This document shows, piece by piece, positions 2,348-16,059 of a stretch of DNA of 22,953 nt (its first letter is position 1; the number at the start of each line of letters is the position of its first letter). The notes beneath the pieces were generated by a model, which worked only from the letters and a program-made list of their open reading frames with translations, was not told the DNA's origin and made no database searches. Origin of the DNA: a virus; the IMG/VR virus record IMGVR_UViG_3300047550_002518, positions 1 through 22,953 of that record; one strand, written 5' to 3'. Both the position numbers and the translations under genes were made by a program.

Positions 2348-3640
2348 TTATTGCTCTTTTATCGTTGGATTTATAACAACATTTTGATTTCCATAATTTA
2401 GATATTCAAATACGTTATTTATGTAATCTAACGCACTTTCCACATTTTGTTCAACCCAATTTTCTGTTGATGAATTATTACTTAATAATTGAGCTAATTT
2501 AACAGATTTATCAGCAATCAACATCAGATTCATTTGAATATTATTTCCGTCATTATTAAATGAAGAGGCACCCGACCCAACCGGAAGTTGGTTCACAACG
2601 TTATCAGATGCCTCATTTACTAAAAAATTTAGCGCCACTTCCGAAATATTTTTTTCAATGCCATGTTCAAAAATAACATCATAGGAATCTTCATTTATAA
2701 CTAAAATTTCTCCTAGACCGAATACGGGATGAAATACAAAGTTTTCCTTTGTGATATCCTGCATTCTTTGTTTAATTCTATCAATGGCAGCTTGTTGTTG
2801 TGGATTTTTTGCTACTGGATTTTTACCTTTAGCAAGATCGTCAGAAAATTTATTCAAATCATCTGTCGATACTTCGCCATCTATCACTTTTCTTGGCTGT
2901 GTCATTTTTGGTGTGGCAGGCGTTGATGGACGCCGAGTAGTTGTGGTAGATGGTTGCCCACTACGACCACTGGTTGTTGGAGGAGGGTTTGGTGTTTCAT
3001 CAGATTTCGGTGTTGAAGTTGAAGGAGGTTTTGGCGTTTCATCAGATTTCGGTGTTGAAGTTGAAGGAGGTTTCAACGTATCTGGATCAGAACCTATACC
3101 GCCTCTTGCTCTTGTAGCAGGTTTATTTTCTTTTTCATCGTCATTTAAATCTGGCGTCGGTAATCTTTCTGCACCAAGTCTTCTACCCGGCGGGACTCTA
3201 AAAGCATCTAATGTGGGAGGTTCCGTAGTAGTAGATGGTCCTTTAACAATAGGTCTCTCTGGTGGAAGGACTTCGCCACTACTACCGCCTCTAGAAGCCG
3301 GTGGGGGTGCTGTAGTAGCAGGGGGTTTACCGCCGCCCGCGCCGCCGCCACCCGGAGCCGGTAAAGCCCGTGGGGAAGGGCTAGGAAGGGCTTTGCGTGC
3401 TAGACCTCCTAGAATACGAGAAACGAATGGAGAGAGAAATTCTTTAATTTCTTCTTTCTCATTTTCTTTCTTCTCAATATTTTTAAATAATTGATCCTTT
3501 GGAACTTTAGGTGTTTTAGGTCTTTCGATAACCTTAACTGGTTCTTGTTCTTCCTTTTTTTCGGAAATGCCTTCAATTTTCATGACAGCATCAATTACGC
3601 TGTCGGTGATATTAAAAGTTTTTCTTATACTGTTTCCCAT
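2348..3640 (-). CDS. Large disordered Pro-rich phage protein with SH3-like C-terminal part, 430 aa
   Basis: Three parts are visible. Residues 1-82 form a conserved-looking head (MGNSIRKTFNITDSVIDAVM, then a Lys/Glu-rich helix). Residues 84-250 form a Pro/Gly/Ser/Thr-rich linker that must be disordered and holds a 14-residue tandem repeat, PPSTSTPKSDETPK. Residues 300-345 contain FVFHPVFGLGEILVI, a short loop and VIFEHG, the pattern of a small SH3-like or CarD-like barrel (HP-x-FG-x-G...V-x-F). The last 60 residues (DKSVKLAQLL...WVEQNVESALDYINNVFEYL) match the helical tail of conserved hypothetical proteins in marine T4-like phages. The linker DNA is much richer in G+C than the surroundings. 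Role unknown; the virion-gene neighbours point to a structural or assembly scaffold. Confidence 0.7.
   Translation of the reverse strand: MGNSIRKTFNITDSVIDAVMKIEGISEKKEEQEPVKVIERPKTPKVPKDQLFKNIEKKENEKEEIKEFLSPFVSRILGGLARKALPSPSPRALPAPGGGGAGGGKPPATTAPPPASRGGSSGEVLPPERPIVKGPSTTTEPPTLDAFRVPPGRRLGAERLPTPDLNDDEKENKPATRARGGIGSDPDTLKPPSTSTPKSDETPKPPSTSTPKSDETPNPPPTTSGRSGQPSTTTTRRPSTPATPKMTQPRKVIDGEVSTDDLNKFSDDLAKGKNPVAKNPQQQAAIDRIKQRMQDITKENFVFHPVFGLGEILVINEDSYDVIFEHGIEKNISEVALNFLVNEASDNVVNQLPVGSGASSFNNDGNNIQMNLMLIADKSVKLAQLLSNNSSTENWVEQNVESALDYINNVFEYLNYGNQNVVINPTIKEQ
2982..3065 (-). repeat. Two tandem 42-bp coding repeats
   Basis: Units at 2982-3023 and 3024-3065 are nearly identical (two differences by eye), and a third broken unit starts at 3066. 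They encode the 14-residue repeat (P-P-S-T-S-T-P-K-S-D-E-T-P-K/N) in the disordered linker of the 430-aa protein. The length is a multiple of three, so gain or loss of units keeps the frame. Confidence 0.9.
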
Positions 3641-3676: not shown

Positions 3677-4560
3677 CATTTGCATTTTTCTTCAAAATAT
3701 AATTTAAAAATTTTTATTTTTTTTCTTTTTTCTAATTGTTGTTTCTGGTTTATTTCATTATATGATTTTGACATATGTTTTGTAATAGTGTTATGTGGGC
3801 TGCTTAGTAATTCACTATCATAAGATTGAGTGATCAAACTGGGAAGTGTTTTTTTAGTTGAATTTTGTCTAGCAATTCTTTGTATATTATCTATGGATGA
3901 AGATTTATATGTTTTAGTTTTTTGATTTAAACTACCAGTAGTATACCCACGTAAAATCGGTTCATATGCTTGCGTTATAAATGTTGGCGTGGATTGTAAT
4001 TCATATGCGTTTAAATTCTTAATTCTTTCTATATTAGATATAGATGAAGATTTATATTTTTTAGTTTTTTGTTCTATACTTCCTTCGGTATTACCACGTA
4101 AAATAGGAATTGCTTTAATATTTGTTGAAATGTCACTAGAAGATGGCCTATGTGACGGTAAATCTTGTTTACGTTTATTGATATTTTTAGATTTAATTAA
4201 ATTAGATATACCGGAAGCCAAAGTAGCCGCAACCGAAATTGACATATTATTTTTTGGTTCTTCGCTAGTTTTTGTGATAATATTTTTTTCCGTTGACTTT
4301 AATGTTTCTGGTGATGTAGAAGGTTTAACAGGAACAGGCAATGTTTCTGGTGATGTAGAAGGTTTAACAGGAACAGGCAATGTTTCTGGTGATGTAGAAG
4401 GTTTAACAGGAACAGGCAATGTTTCTGGTGATGTAGAAGGTTTAACAGGAACAGGCAATGTTTCTGGTTTTATTTTAAATGGTTCTTTTAAAATTATACC
4501 CAATGTTTTTTTTTCAACTAATGAATAATTTCCATGGAAATTTCTTACTATTTTTTTCAT
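3676..4560 (-). CDS. Repeat-rich disordered phage protein, 294 aa
   Basis: The N-terminal 30 residues are basic (MKKIVRNFHGNYSLVEKK) and run directly into four copies of a 13-residue Pro-rich repeat (PETLPVPVKPSTS), encoded by perfect 39-bp DNA repeats. The rest is Ser/Thr/Lys-rich. It contains two diverged copies of a segment of about 49 residues with the pattern PILRG-x-T-x-GS, QKTK-x-YKSSS, then NI-x-RI and ITQ-Y. The C-terminus is strongly basic. There is no catalytic motif, signal peptide or membrane segment. It sits 35 nt before the 430-aa disordered protein and 21 nt after the 433-aa virion protein, all on one strand. I do not recognise a family. A linker, scaffold or host-interaction protein would fit but is not shown. 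Confidence 0.65.
   Translation of the reverse strand: MKKIVRNFHGNYSLVEKKTLGIILKEPFKIKPETLPVPVKPSTSPETLPVPVKPSTSPETLPVPVKPSTSPETLPVPVKPSTSPETLKSTEKNIITKTSEEPKNNMSISVAATLASGISNLIKSKNINKRKQDLPSHRPSSSDISTNIKAIPILRGNTEGSIEQKTKKYKSSSISNIERIKNLNAYELQSTPTFITQAYEPILRGYTTGSLNQKTKTYKSSSIDNIQRIARQNSTKKTLPSLITQSYDSELLSSPHNTITKHMSKSYNEINQKQQLEKRKKIKIFKLYFEEKCK
4301..4467 (-). repeat. Four perfect 39-bp tandem repeats plus partial fifth
   Basis: Identical units lie at 4301-4339, 4340-4378, 4379-4417 and 4418-4456, and a partial copy follows to about 4467. They are inside the 294-aa gene and encode 13 residues each. There are no mismatches between full units, even at third codon positions, which implies recent expansion by slippage or recombination, or gene conversion. 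Confidence 0.97.
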
Positions 4561-6352: not shown

Positions 6353-6884
6353 TGTTCAACTTTCCATAAAATTCATCATAAGGCAAAGAAAAATTAATTT
6401 TCTTTAATTTGTAACATTCCGTGAACATGTTAAACAATGTTGTTTCATAACCACTTGCCTCTATTTCCCATGACGACAAACTCTCACTACCACAGAAAGA
6501 GTATGGGTGCAACACTTCATTGATGACAGCACCTTCATCTAAGAATTTAATATTATTAATCCACATTTGTTTTACATGAGCTAATTCATGAAATAATGTT
6601 AAAATCATTTTGTTAAGTTTCAAATTCTCACACAAATCTATACATGATTTATTCTGGTGTTTAATCTCTTTTCCATCAGTAAACATATGGTACGCACACC
6701 CAAATACTTCTACATTATTTTCTGCTTTCAATGTTTTTTTATCTTTTAAGTAGATATTCAAATAATATGTTTTTGTATTTGGTAGAGAAGAGAACAAATA
6801 GGGAACAGAATAATTCACTGCAAATTTGAGGATTTTATTCAAATCGGAATTTTTCTCATTTTTGATATCGACAACAATTTTCAT
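6276..6884 (-). CDS. HExxH zinc metallopeptidase-like protein, 202 aa
   Basis: The zinc-binding motif is at residues 99-103 (LFHELAHVKQ). The sequence WEIEASGYE at 139-147 offers the third ligand (a downstream Glu, gluzincin style), with FLDEGAVINEV between. Such short HELAHVKQ proteins are known in T4-like marine phages and are usually annotated as metallopeptidase-like, with unknown substrates. There is no signal peptide, so it is probably cytosolic. The start at 6884 has a good AAGGAG 8-10 nt ahead and is the first gene of the leftward unit that begins at the divergent region. The last 25 residues overlap the deaminase gene and look unstructured and basic. Confidence 0.7.
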   Translation of the reverse strand: MKIVVDIKNEKNSDLNKILKFAVNYSVPYLFSSLPNTKTYYLNIYLKDKKTLKAENNVEVFGCAYHMFTDGKEIKHQNKSCIDLCENLKLNKMILTLFHELAHVKQMWINNIKFLDEGAVINEVLHPYSFCGSESLSSWEIEASGYETTLFNMFTECYKLKKINFSLPYDEFYGKLNNVPQPRRKNFKGIGEGSSGERYYFC

Positions 6885-6929
6885 TACAATCGTCTCCTTA
6901 AAAAAACTGGTTGGTTCATCATTTTTTTG

Positions 6930-6958
6930 TTGACATCCGTAAAAAATGTGGGTATACT
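6930..6958 (+). promoter_or_regulatory. Strong sigma70-type promoter (early genes)
   Basis: A perfect -35 TTGACA (6930-6935) and a five-of-six -10 TATACT (6953-6958) are separated by exactly 17 bp, the ideal spacing. Transcription would start near 6965 and read into the 142-aa gene at 7038 and the replication genes beyond. This is the form used by host RNA polymerase for early phage genes. Confidence 0.8.
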
Positions 6959-6971
6959 GGGACTGTTCCCA
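6958..6971. repeat. Short palindrome at the predicted transcription start
   Basis: TGGGA (6958-6962) and TCCCA (6967-6971) are perfect inverted arms around a 4-bp centre. They overlap the last base of the -10 and the expected start point, where an operator or a 5'-end hairpin would sit. Arms of 5 bp can occur by chance. Confidence 0.35.
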
Positions 6972-7037
6972 AAGAGATAAAATGATAACAATAATATATA
7001 ACTAGTTATTAATTATTAATCACAAGAAGGACAAATA

Positions 7038-7466
7038 ATGAGATTAGGAATTTCTGAAATTTTGAAAAAAGCTAATGAGATAGATGATTCAGAAAAAAGA
7101 ATTGAATTTCTCCATCAACATAATAATAATGCATTACAAATCGTTTTGAAATACTGTTTTGATGAAAGAATTAAATTTATCTTGCCGCAAGGCAAGGCAC
7201 CGTATAAACCATCTGAATTTCCAGATTCACAGGGCATGTTATATCAGGAAGCCAGAAAACTCTATATGTTTGTGGAGAATGGACACCCCGAATTGCAAAA
7301 ACCTCACAATAAATTCAAAAGAGAACAATTGTTCATCAATCTTCTGGAAAGCCTTGACAAAGATGATGCGGAATTGATAGTGTCTGTTAAGGATAAAAAA
7401 CTTCCTTACAAACGTATTACTAAAAAATTTGTTGATAAAGTATTTCCAGGGTTAATAGATGGGTAA
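7038..7466 (+). CDS. Conserved T4-like phage early protein, 142 aa
   Basis: I recognise this type from cyanophages and other marine T4-like phages, where it lies just upstream of the PhoH-like gene. Diagnostic stretches are EILKKANEI, LHQHNNNALQIVLKYCFDE, GMLYQEARKLYMFVENG and KREQLFINLLESLDKDDAEL. It is helical, cytosolic and of unknown function. The start at 7038 is set by AAGAAGG 8 nt ahead and is the first gene after the sigma70-type promoter. It overlaps the next gene by 8 nt. Confidence 0.8.
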   Translation: MRLGISEILKKANEIDDSEKRIEFLHQHNNNALQIVLKYCFDERIKFILPQGKAPYKPSEFPDSQGMLYQEARKLYMFVENGHPELQKPHNKFKREQLFINLLESLDKDDAELIVSVKDKKLPYKRITKKFVDKVFPGLIDG

Positions 7467-7656
7467 AACATTTAAAAAAACAAATAGTCGTCGTTATTTC
7501 GATGATGATTATGAATATGGTGAAGATTACAGAAATAAAAAGAAGAAAAACAATAGCGACGATTGGAAAAATAAAAGACATAAAGAAAATCGCCGAAATA
7601 AAAATATGTACTCAAATGAAAGTGACGATGATAATGGATTCCAATTTAAATTATAA
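7459..7656 (+). CDS. Small highly charged phage protein, 65 aa
   Basis: The protein is almost entirely Asp/Glu, Lys/Arg, Asn and Tyr (MGKTFKKTNSRRYFDDDYEY and on), with no hydrophobic core except the last residues FQFKL. It is probably disordered. Similar tiny MGKTF-starting charged proteins follow the 142-aa type gene in marine T4-like phages, which supports its being real. The start overlaps the preceding gene by 8 nt. Function unknown. Confidence 0.65.
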   Translation: MGKTFKKTNSRRYFDDDYEYGEDYRNKKKKNNSDDWKNKRHKENRRNKNMYSNESDDDNGFQFKL

Positions 7657-7933
7657 ATTATGGTTCAAAGAAAAACCATTAATTAAAAATTCTGATTTGG
7701 ACGCAGATTATTGCACCACAATTCAATTTAACAAATATTCAATTAAATTGATGCATTGTTTTGAGGGTATTGGCATGTCCGATAAGTATGTCTCAAAAAC
7801 ATATATTGAAATTTTTGATGGTGATGATAATATCACGGAACATTTTTTAGAAGATTATGGAATAGATGTCGCAATTCCGGTGGAAGCAACCACTCAATTA
7901 TTATCTGACATAATTAAGAAAATTATTGATTAA
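7634..7933 (+). CDS. Hypothetical phage protein, about 99 aa
   Basis: The open frame extends upstream to 7502, but the part before 7634 is a basic shadow of the 65-aa gene. I therefore choose ATG 7634 (MDSNLNYKLWFKEKPL), which overlaps that gene by 23 nt; ATG 7628 is equally possible. The core (TTIQFNKYSIKLMHCFEGIG, YVSKTYIEIFDGDD) looks like an alpha/beta domain, and the C-terminus is a helix (TTQLLSDIIKKIID). I do not recognise a family. The next gene begins 24 nt later with its own SD. Confidence 0.6.
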   Translation: MDSNLNYKLWFKEKPLIKNSDLDADYCTTIQFNKYSIKLMHCFEGIGMSDKYVSKTYIEIFDGDDNITEHFLEDYGIDVAIPVEATTQLLSDIIKKIID

Positions 7934-7957
7934 TTTTAGATTCACAAGGTAGTTAAT

Positions 7958-8197
7958 ATGCCAACATACAATTTCAAAAATAAAAAAACTGGCGATCAAT
8001 GGCAAGAAATGATGAGTAATAGTGAAAGGGAAAAATTGTTAAATGATAATCCAGATATTATTCAATTGTTAATTAATCCAGTTTCTCTCGGTGATCCTGT
8101 CACATTAGGAATTAGAAAACCAGATGACAGTTTTCGAGACGTTTTAAAAGAAATTAAGAAAAATCATCCCCGTGGTGGAGGAATTAATACTTTCTAA
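7958..8197 (+). CDS. FmdB-like small protein lacking zinc cysteines, 79 aa
   Basis: The opening MPTYNFKNKKTGDQWQEMMS and the following NPDIIQLL pattern recall FmdB-type zinc-ribbon regulators (MPTYEY...). The paired Cys that bind zinc in that family are absent here. Cys-less versions ending in a Gly-rich INTF tail are found just before PhoH-like genes in marine T4-like phages. The stop is joined to the PhoH-like start by a TAATG overlap, so the two are translationally coupled. Function unknown; a link to PhoH by position only. Confidence 0.7.
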   Translation: MPTYNFKNKKTGDQWQEMMSNSEREKLLNDNPDIIQLLINPVSLGDPVTLGIRKPDDSFRDVLKEIKKNHPRGGGINTF

Positions 8198-8943
8198 TGA
8201 GTGTCGTCAAAAATAAACCAAAAAGAGCAAACGCTAAACATACTGATGCGGTGCCAAAATCTTTGAGCGAAATGTTTGAATTAAGGCAAATTAAGCCTTT
8301 AACTATTCAGCAACAGAAAACATTTGACGCATTTGATGATAATAAACATCTTATACTTCATGGAGTTGCGGGAACAGGTAAAACATATATTTCATTATAT
8401 CTTGCGCTTGACGAATTATTGTCAGGAAATTGCACGCAAAAAAGAATTATAATTATACGAAGCGTAGTTCCTTCAAGAGAAATTGGTTATCTGCCAGGAA
8501 AAATCTCCGAGAAAATCAATATCTACGAATTACCATATGAACAAATTTGTTCTGACTTAGTTAAAACTAAAATTCCAGTTAAATCATCGTATTCAGAATT
8601 GAAATCAAAGGGTATCATTGAATTTCAATCAACATCTTTTGTTAGGGGATTAACTTTTGATGACGCATTTCTTATTATTGATGAAATGCAAAATATGACA
8701 AGAATGGAACTTCACAGCATATTAACCAGAATTGGTAAAAATACTACATTTATAATGTGCGGTGATTGTCGCCAGGATGATCTTAAAGATAAAAGAACCG
8801 AACAAAGTGGTTTATATGAAATAATGGATGTTCTGAGAAATATTGATTCTGTTGAAACTGTAGAATTTGGTATTAAAGATATTGTTCGTTCCGGTTTTGT
8901 GAAAGAATATATTAAAGCCCGTCATGAATTGGGCCTTTACTGA
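8197..8943 (+). CDS. phoH: PhoH-like P-loop ATPase, 248 aa
   Basis: The Walker A motif is GVAGTGKT at residues 56-63, the Walker B motif is FLIIDEMQN at 158-166, and a sensor-like segment FIMCGDCRQDD follows at 186-195. The RSVVPSREIGYLPGK segment near 88-102 is typical of PhoH. The fold is that of RecA/SF1-like ATPases with proposed RNA-related or helicase activity. The gene is very common in marine phages, but its role in infection is not settled. Length agrees with phage PhoH (about 250 aa). It is coupled to the genes on both sides by one-base TAATG/TGATG overlaps. Confidence 0.92.
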   Translation: MSVVKNKPKRANAKHTDAVPKSLSEMFELRQIKPLTIQQQKTFDAFDDNKHLILHGVAGTGKTYISLYLALDELLSGNCTQKRIIIIRSVVPSREIGYLPGKISEKINIYELPYEQICSDLVKTKIPVKSSYSELKSKGIIEFQSTSFVRGLTFDDAFLIIDEMQNMTRMELHSILTRIGKNTTFIMCGDCRQDDLKDKRTEQSGLYEIMDVLRNIDSVETVEFGIKDIVRSGFVKEYIKARHELGLY

Positions 8944-9632
8944 TGGCAAGACACAAAATATTTACTCATATTACAGATTATGATATGAGTAAATTAGATA
9001 TCGTAAAATCGGAAACAACTGAAAGAGGAAGGGTATACTTTCATCCAAATGGATGTTCATATCCTTCCGTAACTACTGTAATGTCTACGCTGTCAAAAGA
9101 AGGAATAGACAAATGGAAACTTCGAGTTGGAGAAGAAGAAGCTAAAAAAATTTTAGTGCAAGCTTCTCGAAAGGGAACTAAATTACATGATATGTGTGAA
9201 CGATATATCATGAATGAAGAAAATTATAAAGATAAAAATGATATAATAACAAATATGTCATTTAAGTTTATTCAAAATTGCCTGGACAAATATGTTGATG
9301 ATGTGTATGGAGTCGAAAAAGCTCTTTATTCAGATTATCTTGGTTTGGCCGGAAAGACTGATCTTATAGCTAAATTCAAGGGAAAATTGTCAGTAATAGA
9401 TTTTAAAACTTCCAAGAAAGAAAAAACAAAGGATCAAATTCTCTCTTATTTTCTACAGGCAACATCCTACAGTATAATGTTTGAGGAACTTACAGGAATT
9501 CCTATTAATAATTTAGTTATTCTAATGACATTTAATGATGGCGGTGGATGTATATTTGAAGAAAAAAGAGATAATTATGTTGAACAATTAATGAATGTGA
9601 TAAAAAAATATAATGAAAGTATGAAATGTTAG
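8943..9632 (+). CDS. PD-(D/E)XK (RecB/MGME1-like) exonuclease, 229 aa
   Basis: Nuclease motifs appear in order: GTKLHDMCERY (His82), GVEKALYSDYLGLAGKTDLI with Glu125 and Asp140, and VIDFKTSKK with Asp153 and Lys155. This is the arrangement of the RecB-type PD-(D/E)XK family as in MGME1-like exonucleases, which use a divalent metal to degrade DNA ends. A YPSVTTVMS segment near residue 40 is also typical. Marine T4-like phages carry such an exonuclease near PhoH and gene 32. It probably acts in replication, recombination or recycling host DNA. It overlaps the gp33-like gene by 7 nt. Confidence 0.85.
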   Translation: MARHKIFTHITDYDMSKLDIVKSETTERGRVYFHPNGCSYPSVTTVMSTLSKEGIDKWKLRVGEEEAKKILVQASRKGTKLHDMCERYIMNEENYKDKNDIITNMSFKFIQNCLDKYVDDVYGVEKALYSDYLGLAGKTDLIAKFKGKLSVIDFKTSKKEKTKDQILSYFLQATSYSIMFEELTGIPINNLVILMTFNDGGGCIFEEKRDNYVEQLMNVIKKYNESMKC

Positions 9633-9817
9633 ATAAACATATAAAAGCAATACGAGAATTATCGGAGAAAAATAATGTGTTGTTGATAGATGCCGTGAAT
9701 CATTATCAACAACGAAATGATTACGATCCTTATTTTATTGCCGAAATAGTTCAGAGTGATAAAGCATTTTTTTCTCAATTGAAAAAAGAGGCAAAAGATT
9801 TAAAACTGGTGAAATAA
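9626..9817 (+). CDS. 33: gp33-like late transcription co-activator, 63 aa
   Basis: This tiny helical protein has the pattern I associate with cyanophage gp33: a first helix (IRELSEKNNVLLIDAVNHYQ), a 'D-x-x-x-IAEIV' segment and a final helix ending near LKLVK. In T4, gp33 bridges RNA polymerase and the sliding clamp and is needed for late transcription. Position supports this, since T4 and relatives keep gene 33 beside gene 59, which follows here with a one-base overlap. It is much shorter than T4 gp33 (about 112 aa). The call rests on weak sequence pattern and synteny. Confidence 0.55.
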   Translation: MLDKHIKAIRELSEKNNVLLIDAVNHYQQRNDYDPYFIAEIVQSDKAFFSQLKKEAKDLKLVK

Positions 9818-10389
9818 TGAACTCTTATGAAGCATACTGCTTATTTTTAGGTCTTTCCCGTCATTTCAAAACACCTTCATATGATTATTTTAAATATAAT
9901 GGAAAAGTTAATGTCAAGGTTGAAACATTTGAAAAAAGAAATGATAAACATGCTTTCTACAGATTATCACGTAAACCCGATCCGCGTGGTTTAATTTTAT
10001 CAAATCTGTTGAAAAATCCTAAATGCTGGGTAACAGATTGCTTGACAAAGGACGGAGACAGAGTATATAATGAATGGTGTAAGGTAAATCAATCTTTACA
10101 ATATGTTTTTAGAAAAGATTTGAATGAATTTTTAGATATTTTTGACGACAACTTTAAAATAGTAGATGGTTATTATCCAAAAATCATTCAAAATTTCCTT
10201 CAACAAAAAATAACAATGGAAACGGTGATAATTATTGATAAACTAACAAATTTCATGGAAATTGTAAACGGTAAAATTATTGATACCGTTATTTGGCCGG
10301 AAATTTTTCAGAAAATTATTAAGTATAGGTCTTTCATACAGGTTGATTTGGAGATATATAGAAATGTAGTAATACAAAAATTCCAATAA
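9817..10389 (+). CDS. 59: gp59-like loader of gp41 helicase, 190 aa
   Basis: The sequence can be followed against T4 gp59: YDYFKYNGKVNVK (YDVIKYN...), FEKRNDKHAFYRLSRK, LILSNLLKNPKCWVTD, YYPKIIQNFLQQKITMETVI and a C-terminal helix region with VIWPEIFQKIIKYRSFI. gp59 is an all-helical protein that loads the replicative helicase onto gp32-covered forks. Length is slightly below T4 gp59 (217 aa). The gene directly precedes gene 32, which supports the assignment. Start at 9817 overlaps the stop of the gp33-like gene. Confidence 0.85.
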   Translation: MNSYEAYCLFLGLSRHFKTPSYDYFKYNGKVNVKVETFEKRNDKHAFYRLSRKPDPRGLILSNLLKNPKCWVTDCLTKDGDRVYNEWCKVNQSLQYVFRKDLNEFLDIFDDNFKIVDGYYPKIIQNFLQQKITMETVIIIDKLTNFMEIVNGKIIDTVIWPEIFQKIIKYRSFIQVDLEIYRNVVIQKFQ

Positions 10390-10394
10390 ACTGT

Positions 10395-10439
10395 TTACAC
10401 AAAATATACAACATATACTAGACATACAAAATATACAAG
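10395..10439 (+). repeat. 9-nt tandem repeats in the gene 32 leader
   Basis: Four 9-nt units follow each other from 10404: ATATACAAC, ATATACTAG, ACATACAAA, ATATACAAG. A weaker fifth unit (TTACACAAA) precedes them at 10395. The array ends in the ribosome binding site AAGAAGGA (10437-10444) of gene 32. T4 gp32 represses its own translation by cooperative binding to an unstructured leader, so this array is a candidate operator. Confidence 0.6.
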
Positions 10440-10453
10440 AAGGATATAAAAAA

Positions 10454-11434
10454 ATGGTAGATTTCGCTACGTTAAAAAATAGTCGTAAAGCTCAAGCTGA
10501 TAAATTAACACAAAGATTACAAGAGCAGAGCGGTAAAAAATCTTTTTCTGATGATACCTATTGGCAACCTACGGTAGATAAAGCTGGAAATGCGTTGGCA
10601 ATTATTCGTTTTCTTCCTCCATCTGCTGTTGATGGCGAAGACGGAGAGGCACTTATTCGTTTTTGGGAACACTCATTCAGTGTTGATCATGGTGATAAAA
10701 AGCGTTGGTATATCGAAAAATGTTTAACGACAATTGGTCAAGACGATCCCGTAGTTGAACATGTTAATGAATTATATGAATCAAAAAATGACGCGAATGT
10801 TGCTTTAGCTAAATTGCGTAAACGTAAACTTTATTATGTTGCAAATATTTTAGTCATTGACGACAAAGGTATGCCGGAAAATAACGGTAAAATTTTTCGT
10901 TTCAAATTTGGTAAGAAAATCTTTGATAAAATCAATGAGTTAATGAACCCTCCATTTGAAGGGGTTGAAGCCATCAATCCTTTTGACATGTGGGAAGGCT
11001 GTAACTTTCGTTTAATTGCAAGACGTGTTGAAGGTCAAAGAAATTATGATTCATCCACTTTCATTACTCCCCCGTCAGCTATTTCGGATGATGATGAAGT
11101 GCTAGAAACTATTTGGAAAAATTCTCATTCTCTGAAAAGCGAGATTGATGAAACCAAGTTTAAGACTTATGAAGAGTTGAAAAAGCGTTTAGAATTTGTT
11201 CTTGGAAAAAATACTAAGACAGAAAATGCTAAACCAAAAGCTCAGAAACTTCAAAAAACTAATCCAAATAGTGTTCCGTGGGATACATCAGAGGATGAAG
11301 ATGAGGAAGAAGAGGTTCAACCTCGTGTGAAAAATTCAAAGGCAAAATCATCAGTTGTAAATACAACAACCGATGACGATGACGAAGATGATGAAGACGC
11401 AAGCTTCTTCAAAAATCTGACAAAAAGAATCTAA
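10454..11434 (+). CDS. 32: gp32-like single-stranded DNA-binding protein, 326 aa
   Basis: The N-terminal LAST-like basic segment, the core with RFWEHSF, KRKLYYVANILVIDDKG, NNGKIFRFKFGKKIFDKINE and WEGCNFRLIARRVEG, and the NYDSSTF segment all match T4 gp32 in order. The C-terminus (about 285-326) is a strongly acidic tail, which in T4 binds partner replication proteins, ending in a short basic FFKNLTKRI. The T4 zinc site (one His, three Cys) is not preserved: only His73 and Cys90 lie in that region. Cyanophage versions also lack it. Translation begins after AAGAAGGA. The stop TAA overlaps the glycosyltransferase start (TAATG). Confidence 0.92.
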   Translation: MVDFATLKNSRKAQADKLTQRLQEQSGKKSFSDDTYWQPTVDKAGNALAIIRFLPPSAVDGEDGEALIRFWEHSFSVDHGDKKRWYIEKCLTTIGQDDPVVEHVNELYESKNDANVALAKLRKRKLYYVANILVIDDKGMPENNGKIFRFKFGKKIFDKINELMNPPFEGVEAINPFDMWEGCNFRLIARRVEGQRNYDSSTFITPPSAISDDDEVLETIWKNSHSLKSEIDETKFKTYEELKKRLEFVLGKNTKTENAKPKAQKLQKTNPNSVPWDTSEDEDEEEEVQPRVKNSKAKSSVVNTTTDDDDEDDEDASFFKNLTKRI

Positions 11435-12081
11435 TGTTTGTAGTAGCATCTTTTAATGATTCTGGGTATGAAAAATTAGCTTCAATCACAGATGAAGTAA
11501 AAAAGGAATATTGCAATAGACATGGTTACACATTTTATTGCAAGAAAGATAACTGGCGAACTCCCGATATGGGATTCGCCAGACTTCATTTAATATTGGA
11601 AATTTTTGAATTATATCCAGATTGTGAATGGTTATTCATTGTAGATTGTGATGCAATGGTAACTAATTTCAATATAAAAATTGAAGATAGAATTAATAAT
11701 TCTGTTCACGTGATATGGACTATGTATTTTAATGGAATAAATGTTGGTAATTTATTGATTAAAAATTCACAAGAGGCCAAAAATTACATTCAAGATTTAA
11801 TCAATCTAGAACACATTTATGTTAATCATTCATGGAAAGAACAACAGGCTGTCATTGATACCTTAAACAAATATAACAATATTATAGGTATTGTTCCTGC
11901 TAGATATATGTCAAGTTTACAAAAACAAATATACACTCACAGTCAACTTCCAACTGATGTTGACTTACTAGGTCAAAATATGATATGGCAGCAAGGAGAT
12001 TGGGCTGTTCATTGGCCTGGATTGACTTTAGAAAATAAAATAGAACAAGCAAAAATAATGGTCAATAATATTGTAAGGTAA
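11434..12081 (+). CDS. Glycosyltransferase, GT-A fold, DxD motif, 215 aa
   Basis: The protein starts VVASFNDSGYEKLASITDEV, like enzymes of the galactosyl/mannosyltransferase GMA12/MNN10 type. The DxD metal and sugar-nucleotide motif is D71-C72-D73 in WLFIVDCDAMV. Acceptor-side features follow: NGINVGNLLIKNS near 100-112, HSWKEQQAVID near 132-142 and the metal-type His193 in AVHWPGLT. There is no signal peptide or membrane span, so it acts in the cytosol on a soluble or DNA acceptor, or peripherally at the membrane. It is the first gene of the sugar cassette, coupled to gene 32 by TAATG and 7 nt before the dehydrase gene. It is the likely user of the sugar made by the following enzymes; the acceptor is unknown. 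Confidence 0.8.
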   Translation: MFVVASFNDSGYEKLASITDEVKKEYCNRHGYTFYCKKDNWRTPDMGFARLHLILEIFELYPDCEWLFIVDCDAMVTNFNIKIEDRINNSVHVIWTMYFNGINVGNLLIKNSQEAKNYIQDLINLEHIYVNHSWKEQQAVIDTLNKYNNIIGIVPARYMSSLQKQIYTHSQLPTDVDLLGQNMIWQQGDWAVHWPGLTLENKIEQAKIMVNNIVR

Positions 12082-12088
12082 TTAGATT

Positions 12089-13423
12089 ATGAGTGAACAA
12101 ATTAATAATATATTAAATGATGTTGAAATTTATATAAAAGATAGGCAATCAAGTTCTGATTGGGTTGAAGGACGCGACCAAATTAATTATTCCGGAACAT
12201 ATTATGATCACAGAGAATATGTTGCTGCTGTGAAAACATTACTTTCCGGTTGGATGGGAATGGGGAAAGATTCAAATCATTTTGAATCACTATTTCCCAG
12301 ACATTTAGGAAAAAAATTTGGTTCATTGGTGAATAGTGGTTCATCAGCCAATTTATTAATGTATGCCACATTATTGAGCAAAAATGCATATGGCTTAAAA
12401 AAAGGCACTCGAATAATTACCCCTGTTGCCGGATTTCCAACAACAATCAATCCAATTTTACAATTGGGGTTTGAACCAGTATTTGTTGACATTGAATTAA
12501 ATACGTTAAATATTGATATCGATCAATTCTATAATGCGTGTAAAACAAGTAATGCACAAGTTGTATGTTTTGCACATGTTTTAGGCAATCCTCCAAATAT
12601 TGATAAAATTTTAGACATTTGCACACAATTTAATCTAATTTTATTGGAAGATTGTTGTGATGCTCTAGGTTCCATGTATGATGATAAATTATTAGGCTCT
12701 TTTGGAGATATGGCAACATGTAGTTTTTATCCCGCACATCATATTTCTTTAGGGGAAGGCGGTTTTGTTGCAACTAAAAATAATGAACTAAATGATGTTG
12801 TGAAATCATTGAGAGATTGGGGAAGAGGTTGTTATTGCCAGGGAGAAAAGGCTAATAAATTAGTTTGTGGAACTTGTGGTAAAAGATTTTCGGAATGGGT
12901 TTCGGAATTACCAGGGGAAATTTTTGATCACAAATATATTTACAATGAAATTGGTTTTAATCTCAAACCAATTGAATTACAGGCATCTATTGGTTTACAA
13001 CAATTACATAAATTGCCGGTGATTAATACTATACGAAGACATAATTTTGAATTACTATTTGAAACATATCGTGATTATGAGAAATATTTCATATTACCAA
13101 GAGCAACGGAAAAATCTGATCCGGCGTGGTTTGCTTTTCCTCTGACAGTGAAAGAAAATTCACCTTTCACTCGAAAAGATATAGTTTCGTATTTGGAAGA
13201 AAAAAAAATTCAGACTAGACCATATTTTGCCGGTAATATTTTATTACAGCCGGGATATTCGGATATTCGTAATAATTATTTTCCTAATGCAAAAACAGAT
13301 TTTCCAAATGCAACTTATGCAACAACATCAACATTTTTTCATGGCACGAGTCCAACTATAAGTGTAAAACAAATGATTTATATCAGAAAAATGGTTAAAA
13401 ACTTTATGAGTAAGTTTCAATGA
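12089..13423 (+). CDS. rfbH: RfbH/E1-type CDP-4-keto-6-deoxyglucose 3-dehydrase, 444 aa
   Basis: This is a DegT/DnrJ-fold protein in which the PLP-binding lysine is replaced by histidine: SFYPAHHISLGEGG, with His217 at the place of E1 His220. It therefore binds PMP and removes the 3-OH rather than transaminating. The [2Fe-2S] ligands of E1 are traceable as Cys190 (LLEDCCDALG), Cys248 and Cys250 (DWGRGCYC) and Cys263 (CGKRF). Asp187 would hold the PMP ring. Other family stretches are CFAHVLGNPPNIDKI and HKYIYNEIGFNLKPIELQAS. Length is that of E1 (about 437 aa). In bacteria the enzyme acts on CDP-4-keto-6-deoxyglucose with the reductase E3, which is not in this window. The spacing between Cys250 and Cys263 is five residues longer than in E1. 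Overlap ATGA with the next gene. Confidence 0.88.
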   Translation: MSEQINNILNDVEIYIKDRQSSSDWVEGRDQINYSGTYYDHREYVAAVKTLLSGWMGMGKDSNHFESLFPRHLGKKFGSLVNSGSSANLLMYATLLSKNAYGLKKGTRIITPVAGFPTTINPILQLGFEPVFVDIELNTLNIDIDQFYNACKTSNAQVVCFAHVLGNPPNIDKILDICTQFNLILLEDCCDALGSMYDDKLLGSFGDMATCSFYPAHHISLGEGGFVATKNNELNDVVKSLRDWGRGCYCQGEKANKLVCGTCGKRFSEWVSELPGEIFDHKYIYNEIGFNLKPIELQASIGLQQLHKLPVINTIRRHNFELLFETYRDYEKYFILPRATEKSDPAWFAFPLTVKENSPFTRKDIVSYLEEKKIQTRPYFAGNILLQPGYSDIRNNYFPNAKTDFPNATYATTSTFFHGTSPTISVKQMIYIRKMVKNFMSKFQ

Positions 13424-14466
13424 GAGTTTGTGATTATATTGCACAACAACTTGTTAATCATGGAATAAAAAATGTTTACGGATTAATGGGTGGCGGTGCT
13501 TCTGGATTGAATGATGGATTTATTAAAAATCCTGACATCAATTATGTTTGTTTTCATCATGAGCAAGCCGCCGGATATGCCGCCATTGGTGAAGCAAAAT
13601 ATACACGGAATTTTGCTGTTGTTAATCCAACTACTGGTTGTGGTGGAACCAATTGTATAACACCTTTGCTTGACGCATGGCAAGATGGCGTTCCTGTATT
13701 GTTTATTTCTGGAAATGTTAAATTATCACAAACCTCTAGATTTATTAATAAATTTAGTCGTGTTAGTATTCGTAAATATGGTATTCAAGAAAACGATATT
13801 ATTAAATTAGTTGGTCCTCTAACTAAAGATTCTATTTTTATTGAAAATTATAAAGACATTCCATATGTTCTAGATATCGCCTTCGATTTAATGACTACTG
13901 GCCGACCCGGCCCGGTGTGGATTGATATTCCATCTGATATACAGGTGGAAAAAATGGATGAAGAAACTTTATCATATAAATTTAGGTTTAGGTCGATCGA
14001 TGATTTATATTCTCATGAGTTTTCTGATAGAAAAATTATTGAGAATGTTGTATATCGTCTTATTAAACACGCAAAAAGACCTATTGTCTTGGCAGGAAAT
14101 GGTATTGCACAAGCAAATGCCATTGATGAATTCATTACATTCATAAACAAATATAAAATTCCATATGTGTCAACATATGGCGCAAGAGACTTTATTCCAT
14201 ATGACGATCCATACAATATTGGATGCATAGGTGTTAAAGGGTCTCGTGCTGGTAATATGGCTATGCAGCACGCCGATGTATTATTGATATTGGGGTGTTC
14301 TTTGAATTCTAGTCATATAGGTTATTCTAGTGAATTATTTTCACCAAATTCATATAAAATAATGGTTGATATTCATCGTGCAGAATTAGATAAAGAAATA
14401 GTTTTCATTGACGAAAAATATAATATGCATTTATCTAAATTTTTTACAGTAGTTAATGGTGTTTGA
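13420..14466 (+). CDS. ThDP enzyme, PYR and middle domains (N-terminal part), 348 aa
   Basis: This is the first two-thirds of an acetolactate-synthase-fold enzyme. Residues 1-175 are the PYR domain with the catalytic Glu48 (FHHEQAAGYAAIGEAKY), then NPTTGCGGTNCITPLLDAWQ and GRPGPVWIDIPSDIQ. Residues 205-340 are the middle domain (KRPIVLAGNGIAQANAID, HADVLLILGCSLN, IMVDIHRAELDKE). The PP domain that binds thiamine diphosphate is absent and is encoded by the next ORF. The stop TGA falls in the normal linker between middle and PP domains, after SKFFTVVNGV. Neighbours suggest a YerE-like role, adding a two-carbon acetyl unit from pyruvate to the 4-keto sugar. FAD binding, as in YerE, is possible but not provable here. 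Start overlaps the dehydrase stop (ATGA). Confidence 0.85.
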   Translation: MRVCDYIAQQLVNHGIKNVYGLMGGGASGLNDGFIKNPDINYVCFHHEQAAGYAAIGEAKYTRNFAVVNPTTGCGGTNCITPLLDAWQDGVPVLFISGNVKLSQTSRFINKFSRVSIRKYGIQENDIIKLVGPLTKDSIFIENYKDIPYVLDIAFDLMTTGRPGPVWIDIPSDIQVEKMDEETLSYKFRFRSIDDLYSHEFSDRKIIENVVYRLIKHAKRPIVLAGNGIAQANAIDEFITFINKYKIPYVSTYGARDFIPYDDPYNIGCIGVKGSRAGNMAMQHADVLLILGCSLNSSHIGYSSELFSPNSYKIMVDIHRAELDKEIVFIDEKYNMHLSKFFTVVNGV

Positions 14467-15211
14467 AATGTTTAATGATTATGAAAAAAAAGCATGGTTT
14501 GATCAATGTAATAGATGGAAAAATAAATGGTCATATCAACTAAAGAAAATGGAAATTGATAAAAAGGATAATTCTCCATTCTCCATTTATGAAATAATGG
14601 AATTAGTAAGTAGATCATTGACAGAAGATATTGTAGTTGTAACTGATGCTGGTTCGCCATCCTACACATGTCCTGTTAATTTGAGAAATGTTCATAATGG
14701 AAGATTTATATTCAGTCAATCACAGGCAGATATGGGATTTTCAATTCCCGCCTCTGTTGGAGTTGCGTTATCTTCAAATAAAAATGTTTTGGTTATTGTT
14801 GGTGACGGTAGTTTTATGAGCAATGTTCAAGAGTTATCCACAATAAAATATTTTAATTTACCTATTAAAATTTTGGTATTGGATAATAGAGGATATATGT
14901 CCATTAAAAATACTCAAAAGAATTTTTTCAATAATAGAGTTTATGGAGTTGATTCAACTTCCGGCGTTAATATTCCTCCAATCGAAAATATGGCCAATGC
15001 TTTTGATTTACAATTCTACAATCTACATTCCATATTAGATAATTTTGATGATATTATCAGGCTTTCTACTCCATGTGTAATGCAAGCCGTTTGTCATGAA
15101 GTAGAAGAAATAATTCCTATGCAATCATTTAAAGTTGTTGATGGTAAAACTATTCAAGCTCCTTTGGATGACATGTACCCATTTTTAGATAATGGTAAGG
15201 AATCGTATTAA
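14456..15211 (+). CDS. ThDP enzyme, PP domain (C-terminal part), 251 aa
   Basis: Residues 42-225 form the pyrophosphate-binding domain. The ThDP/Mg motif runs from VIVGDGSF (Gly116-Asp-Gly) to LDNRGY (Asn144). Upstream is VVTDAGSPSY and FSQSQADMGFSIPASVGVAL, the usual PP-domain entrance of acetolactate-synthase relatives. Residues 1-35 (AWFDQCNRWKNKW) are the linker helix that normally joins middle and PP domains in one chain. With the previous ORF it adds to about 600 aa, the normal size of the whole enzyme. The ATG lies 11 nt inside the previous ORF with no clear ribosome binding site, so its translation depends on coupling or on a +1 shift at GTT TGA. It overlaps the reductase start by TAATG. 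Confidence 0.85.
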   Translation: MVFEMFNDYEKKAWFDQCNRWKNKWSYQLKKMEIDKKDNSPFSIYEIMELVSRSLTEDIVVVTDAGSPSYTCPVNLRNVHNGRFIFSQSQADMGFSIPASVGVALSSNKNVLVIVGDGSFMSNVQELSTIKYFNLPIKILVLDNRGYMSIKNTQKNFFNNRVYGVDSTSGVNIPPIENMANAFDLQFYNLHSILDNFDDIIRLSTPCVMQAVCHEVEEIIPMQSFKVVDGKTIQAPLDDMYPFLDNGKESY

Positions 15212-16059
15212 TGGTTAATGTTTTGGTATTGGGGTCTAAAGGTTTTTTAGGATCGGTGTTGATTAGAGAGCTTCAAAAAAATTCAAATTATAATGTGCAA
15301 GGATTAAATAGAGATAATTATGATTTTACTCATTATCTTTCCACAAAATATTTTATTTCATCCATGGAACCAGATATTATAATTAATTGTGCAACACAGG
15401 GCGGTAAACAGAAATTAGGTGATTTTAATAAAGATGAACTTATCAATAACTTAAAAATTCACCGAAATCTTATGAATTGTAGGGATTATTACGGATTATT
15501 AATTAATATAGGTAGCGGTGCAGAATTTGATATTACCACAAATATTGAAAATGTAAGAGAATGGGATTTTTGTGATATTGTTCCATCTGATAGTTACGGT
15601 CTATCAAAAAATATTATATCAAATGACACAAATTTTAAATGTTTAACTTTACGTCTTTTTATGTGTTTTGATTATTCTGAACCTTCCTTTAGGTTACTTA
15701 AACGTTACTTAATGAATGAAAAAACCACTCTTACTAATCTCAAGAAGATTTCATTTATTTCAGCAATAGATTTTTGTATTATTGTAAAACATTTCATTGA
15801 TTTATATAATTGGAAACATATTTTGAGATTTAGTAATAATTATAATTTAATGATGAATTGCGCATATCTAGAACAAATGTATGTGGATGAAATTTTGGAT
15901 ATTTTTTCAGACATACATAAAATTCCAAAAAAATATGAAATAGAAAGTTACTCAAATAATAGTTACACATGTAATACAGATTTATTGTATGGTCAATTTA
16001 ATGAAGTGGTAAAAAAATTCGAGGGATTTGAGAGTGCCATGAGGAAATATTCTAATTAA
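15211..16059 (+). CDS. NAD(P)-dependent SDR sugar reductase/epimerase, 282 aa
   Basis: The N-terminal Rossmann motif is GSKGFLG at residues 8-14 (GxxGxxG), followed by DIIINCATQGGK. The catalytic residues fit extended SDR enzymes: Ser102 in INIGSGAEFD, and Tyr129 and Lys133 in SYGLSK. It is about the length of RmlD- or YerF-type enzymes (280-300 aa). After a YerE-like step the product carries a ketone on the added two-carbon arm, and YerF reduces it with NADPH; this gene is in the right position to do that. The C-terminal 80 residues are less recognisable. It is the last gene of the cassette, and its end runs 8 nt into the end of the convergent 619-aa gene. Confidence 0.82.
   Translation: MVNVLVLGSKGFLGSVLIRELQKNSNYNVQGLNRDNYDFTHYLSTKYFISSMEPDIIINCATQGGKQKLGDFNKDELINNLKIHRNLMNCRDYYGLLINIGSGAEFDITTNIENVREWDFCDIVPSDSYGLSKNIISNDTNFKCLTLRLFMCFDYSEPSFRLLKRYLMNEKTTLTNLKKISFISAIDFCIIVKHFIDLYNWKHILRFSNNYNLMMNCAYLEQMYVDEILDIFSDIHKIPKKYEIESYSNNSYTCNTDLLYGQFNEVVKKFEGFESAMRKYSN

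Follow-up and report, generated by a model that had tools for sequence, protein, structure and literature searches.

A tandem array of short, nearly G-free units immediately upstream of gene 32 probably forms the leader portion of an autogenous operator acting on gp32 translation, T4-like but with a different repeat unit and no detectable pseudoknot, as argued below by analogy with known systems and from conservation among relatives. The array was found in a 22,953-base virus record of a T4-related phage, hereafter called the window, in which a PhoH-like gene, an exonuclease, a 63-aa ORF, the gp59 helicase loader and gp32 form one gene row. Gene 59 (9817..10389, + strand) encodes the 190-aa gp41 helicase loader (phrog_269, E 3e-48; PF08993 and PF08994), gene 32 (10454..11434, +) the 326-aa single-stranded-DNA-binding protein (phrog_224, E 8e-93; PF08804, E 2e-36; PDB gp32 chains 8gme and 1gpc), and an unstructured gap of 64 nt (10390..10453, +) separates the two.

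Within this gap the array, proposed here as a gp32-binding tract of the mRNA leader (10395..10439, +), comprises a weaker unit TTACACAAA (10395-10403) and four 9-nt units with the core ATAYAC, namely ATATACAAC (10404-10412), ATATACTAG (10413-10421), ACATACAAA (10422-10430), which reads ACATAC at its core, and ATATACAAG (10431-10439). The sequence AAGGA (10440..10444, +), read as the Shine-Dalgarno, abuts the last unit, and the array ends 14 nt before the gene 32 ATG (10454). An earlier note on this DNA had described just such an arrangement, four successive units plus a weaker one running straight into the ribosome-binding site, and both the repeat finder and shuffled sequences agree with it: TRF reports 10399-10438 with period 9, 4.4 copies, 77% matches and a score of 52, and the self-match at lag 9 in 10390-10439 reaches 28 of 41 positions, a value attained by 0 of 20,000 dinucleotide shuffles (p 5e-5 after correction for the best lag among 4-14). 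Across the whole window this is the highest value, and 50-mers with 28 lag-9 matches start solely at 10387-10397; likewise, the array is the sole match in the window to ATACN{4,8}ATACN{4,8}ATAC, that is, to three ATAC cores 8-12 nt apart. Two further claims of that note stand in part. The shared core is exact (ATATACAA) in two of the four units, the remaining two reading ATATACTA and ACATACAA, and the supposed lack of G is nearly complete, with a single G at 10421 within 10395-10438.

To place the array among relatives, we assembled gp32 leaders drawn from the best 80 of several hundred matches in each collection scan. A single-protein scan gave three loci and a neighbour-gene scan returned the contig of locus L001 again, hence the use of gp59 and alignment queries; among the matches listed, these yielded 346 sequences (345 loci plus the window), 329 of them with a usable gp32 start and 60 nt upstream. 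Two loci were excluded as copies (L004 of the window, L167 of the L001 contig), and the nonredundant set holds 118 gp32 leaders whose proteins are less than 80% identical, 116 of which had enough upstream sequence for the counts of upstream elements, folding at -90..-45 and pseudoknots. Starts of gp32 were picked automatically, those of L178 and L180 looking one ATG too far downstream, and the P-SSM2 start was set by homology 75 nt before the annotated one. The ATAC motif was picked after inspection of the initial leaders, further loci were fetched after that choice, and the autocorrelation tests are motif-free. Control leaders lie near gene 32, many of them within coding sequence.

For comparison we used 358 nonredundant leaders belonging to other genes at these loci. 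At least two ATAC cores occur at -60..-7 in 82 of the 118 gp32 leaders and in 8 of the 358 controls, at least three in 56/118 and 1/358; at less than 70% protein identity the corresponding gp32 counts are 43/63 and 31/63. Of 209 spacings between neighbouring cores, 127 measure 9, 10 or 11 nt and 148 fall within 8-12 nt. The window fits this comb: it has at least three ATAC cores, spaced 8-12 nt, and the series runs up to the gene 32 Shine-Dalgarno. Its nearest relative among the matches listed, L001 (gp32 identity about 67%), carries units of equal length, and there the array (~2955-2996) is the translated last stretch of gp59 (KYT EDT NYT NYM EK) and serves two readings at once. L090 and L091 (gp32 51%) carry a non-coding array of mixed spacing, and by eye no array is present in the gene 32 leaders of LIMEstone1, Menlow and BUCT608.

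The cores keep register with the start codon. Their starts cluster at about -5, -16, -26 and -36 from the gene 32 ATG, and the best period relative to the ATG is 10.0 (R 0.45, n=316), an R that 0 of 500 shift controls reach. At -9..-4 an ATAC is found in 45/118 gp32 leaders against 21/358 controls, at -18..-14 in 60/118 against 5/358, and all 118 gp32 genes together have just four in their first 60 nt past the ATG. In the first nonredundant set (83 leaders), both the Shine-Dalgarno and the last ATAC could be located in 75, and the two abut in 34 of these. The comb thus traverses the ribosome-binding site and all but stops at the ATG.

A period of the same size emerges when no motif is specified. 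Pooled leaders show excess self-match at lags 9, 10 and 11 (z 6.9, 3.6 and 4.1) and depletion (negative z) at lags 6-8; among leaders with at most one ATAC core (36), z is 3.7 at lag 9 and 5.1 at lag 10, and leaders at less than 70% identity, with the window and L001 left out, give z 3.7, 4.5 and 3.4 at lags 9, 10 and 11. The best lag per leader falls at 9-11 in 76/118 gp32 leaders against 31/118 controls, and 37/118 gp32 leaders are individually significant against 10/118 controls. Controls have an excess of their own at lags 6, 9, 12, 15 and 18 (lag 9 z 3.3), which we attribute to the many control leaders inside coding sequence, and the 53 G-poor ones also show some excess at lag 10 (z 3.8, ratio 1.08). 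In the set retrieved with the cyanophage query, where AATCC or AATCT is common (34 nonredundant leaders), z is 8.5 at lag 9 and 4.1 at lag 10; the corresponding comb pattern was found in four of eight records, once each and always at the gp32 leader by coordinates, and the whole 252-kb P-SSM2 record holds a single match, at that leader. The T4-query set, with CTGTTAA/UUAAA-like units (38 leaders), has a period of 10 with a weaker one of 5 (lag 10 z 5.8, lag 5 z 2.5, lag 9 z 0.0); it includes some phages outside the family and five with ATAC arrays, without which lag 10 stands at z 5.0, and 5 of its 38 leaders are individually significant. In aggregate, then, the lineages with other cores, marine cyanophages (AATCC-like) and T4-type phages (CTGTTAA/UUAAA-like), retain a period of 9-10 nt.

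That the leader can hardly fold, as the earlier note proposed, agrees with a predicted minimum free energy of 0.0 for -50..+3 and of -0.7 kcal/mol for the 64-nt leader plus ATG, and gp32 leaders as a group fold less than control leaders (median -1.5 vs -5.15 kcal/mol). Loss of the period or of low structure in related phages had been named beforehand as evidence against the proposal; both are kept in the sampled leaders. The T4-like pseudoknot that the note suggested looking for upstream did not materialise: an H-type search, blind to other structure classes, gave no candidate in the window at -130..-65 or -95..-30, and none in L001, while recovering the 28-nt T4 pseudoknot at its reported operator place (p 0.005). 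L090 yields a weak candidate, with p 0.045 in one frame of view and 0.175 in another, and because 17/116 relatives have candidates at p<=0.05 against 5.8 expected, some lineages may possess a pseudoknot. A search of window 10100-10700 against Rfam found nothing at E<=1, and on seven loci Rfam matched tmRNA only, revealing phage-borne tmRNA genes in two gp59-gp32 loci (L103 544-908 and L157 167-536; Rfam beta_tmRNA, permuted tmRNA).

Upstream of the array, other elements recur in some relatives. The late-promoter octamer TATAAATA is present in exact form upstream in 28/116 gp32 leaders against 14/339 controls, and in L030 and L138 inspection by eye shows it ahead of a short hairpin, with the array beyond; the mean z of a 5' hairpin after the octamer is -0.88, with z<-1.5 in 5 of 17. 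The stretch -90..-45 folds more strongly than in control genes (mean z -0.86 vs -0.26, p 0.008) but its folding does not exceed that of -130..-85 in these leaders (p 0.28); extra structure at -90..-45 of gp32 leaders is therefore suggestive only; the window has no fold signal there (z 0.1). In L098, L157 and L120, for example, the ATAC array is preceded on its 5' side by a conserved TTATG..GTGGATAAG-like element; counted as GTGGATAAG-like, it occurs in 35/116 gp32 leaders against 6/339 controls, no stem could be established for it, and the window does not contain it. The window has five exact octamers against 6.2 expected, none near gene 32. A consensus scan of 6800-12200 gave 39 promoter-like sites against 29.9 expected in shuffles, and a promoter within the array was rejected, as none of the 39 sites falls inside it. 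The gene 32 transcript in the window may start further up, for instance at a candidate promoter within gene 59, a sigma-70-like TTGACA-18-TATAAT with 12 of 12 consensus positions matched (10042..10071, +; consensus match only).

These observations can be set against what is known of gp32 autoregulation. T4 and RB69 gp32 repress their own message, according to PMC535899. In T4, PMC535899 and PMC3014915 describe a pseudoknot that nucleates binding and a UUAAA/UAAA tract that carries cooperative binding over the ribosome-binding site; the former adds that this tract, which occupies the position of the array, is essential and that the T4 footprint ends at G(+3). The T4/RB69 operator resembles that proposed for the window in lying between gene 59 (or segG) and gene 32 and in having unstructured A+U-rich repeats that run into the ribosome-binding site; the window differs in lacking a detectable 5' pseudoknot and in having an ATAYACAA-like unit of period 9 rather than UUAAA/UAAA. 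Similar in the former respect is the RB49 gene 32 leader, an operator candidate reported to have no pseudoknot, whose units are given as UUAA/UUAAA in PMC535899, whereas PMC3014915 states that no A+U-rich sequence is present there. Repeats before gene 32 are therefore already known in T4, RB69 and, by one account, RB49. The leaders of P-SSM2 and its cyanophage and pelagiphage relatives share with the array class a 9-10-nt comb through the Shine-Dalgarno before gene 32, with AATCC/AATCT in place of the ATAC of the window, and we found no operator function reported for them in the literature retrieved.

Because of the T4/RB69 precedent, and because the T4 footprint ends at G(+3), near the end of the comb, we take the array as a gp32 binding tract, and we infer that gp32 is the ligand, that it represses by binding and that the array lies inside the transcript. 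The unstructured, nearly G-free leader would then offer a series of similar short sites, one every 9-10 nt or so, leading into the ribosome-binding site and, in relatives, through it. When in excess of available ssDNA, gp32 would coat the leader cooperatively in a fixed register, hiding the Shine-Dalgarno and start codon, until ssDNA pulled it off the leader and translation resumed. The suggestion of a possible gp32 operator in the earlier note is accordingly the best-supported reading of the conserved period, the low structure and the near-confinement to gene 32 described below, shorn of the pseudoknot and of the idea of one protein per repeat. The latter finds no support, given a period of 9 in the window against a T4 gp32 site of ~7 nt on ssDNA (PMC10484735) and the depletion of lags 6-8 in pooled leaders; either the protomers would adopt a wider register on leader RNA, or the sequence would be read by some contacts only.

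A scan of 17 whole records (1.76 Mb) for the triple-ATAC pattern returned 29 rows, 8 of which, in six records, are at gp32 leaders by locus coordinates; the 21 outside gp32 compare with 19 for a reversed control pattern, and no second class of site was seen in these records. Such near-confinement points to an element for gene 32 in particular rather than to a general enhancer or to a factor controlling many genes. It is therefore unlikely that the array acts simply as a translation-enhancing leader, an unstructured A-rich tract for ribosomal protein S1 or ribosome standby that involves no repression by gp32. The leader is indeed unstructured, A-rich and directed into the Shine-Dalgarno, and the lag-10 excess of the G-poor controls would be in keeping with this idea; an enhancer, however, should also serve other abundant phage proteins, which the counts outside gp32 and the single nearby leader in 358 with three cores speak against, and the precedent in T4 and RB69 is repression (PMC535899). 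The same near-confinement makes it quite improbable that a different phage RNA-binding regulator, RegA or some unknown protein, uses the array as its operator on gene 32: RegA, found widely among T4-related phages, recognises translation starts that are unstructured and A+U-rich (PMC3014915), but it acts on many genes.

At the DNA level, tandem transcription-factor sites or -10-like hexamers that overlap one another, with a phasing close to the 10.5-bp helical repeat, would account for a period near 10, for the TATACA/TATACT within the units and for the late-promoter octamers upstream in some relatives. A DNA-level element needs no register with the start codon, however, and a comb that keeps one, crosses the Shine-Dalgarno and all but ends at the ATG suits a translation-level element; as the consensus scan also placed no promoter inside the array, we regard a DNA-level role as very unlikely. 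Least credible is a coding by-product, that is, a repeat of three codons in the gp59 tail or debris left by slippage in it. The array of L001 is the end of gp59, and past its own stop the gp59 frame of the window has no further stop codon through the array until a TAA at 10447-10449; yet the array is mostly non-coding in L090 and the wider set, spacings spread over 8-12 nt rather than over multiples of 3, and the gp59 tail is not common to the gp59 of phiM12 or DLP6. A gp32 operator acting on translation thus remains the preferred reading.

If the operator reading is correct, the comb touches on an older problem. PMC535899 calls it unclear how gp32, with little sequence preference on ssDNA, recognises its own mRNA, and also notes high sequence divergence of gene 32 upstream regions among T4-like phages; translational autocontrol by gp32 in diverse T4-related phages is said to need more thorough study (PMC3014915). 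Since a comb registered on the start codon is conserved where a T4-like pseudoknot mostly goes undetected by a simple search, the sequences suggest that recognition generally depends on the spacing of the repeats, the pseudoknot having been added in particular lineages. More tentatively, and with considerable doubt on our part, gp32 may read its own message across T4-related phages in a fixed ~10-nt register that differs from the ~7-nt packing of T4 gp32 measured on ssDNA, protein and unit (ATAC, AATCC, CTGTTAA/UUAAA) having drifted together with the spacing kept. A ~10-nt ruler, if real, would explain how a sequence-neutral ssDNA-binding protein picks one mRNA without a pseudoknot, and the conserved comb opens the recognition question to direct footprint and spacing tests. 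In the literature on the operator, with subscription journals mostly outside coverage, we found no report of a conserved 9-10-nt register with lineage-specific units.

Two features elsewhere in the window deserve mention. Directly 3' of gene 32 lies a nucleotide-sugar cassette (11434-16059, +), which we take, as a guess, to be a branched-chain deoxysugar pathway; it encodes a glycosyltransferase (PF05637), a DegT-type aminotransferase (PF01041), a TPP enzyme and an NAD epimerase (PF01370), the TPP enzyme being split into two overlapping ORFs (13420-14466, N and middle domains; 14456-15211, C domain), and its first three genes adjoin gene 32 in L001 too. The window also contains in-gene tandem repeats of 39 nt (4301-4468, 4.3 copies, 100% matches) and 42 nt (2976-3073, 2.3 copies), in genes on the minus strand that encode proline/threonine-rich repeats.
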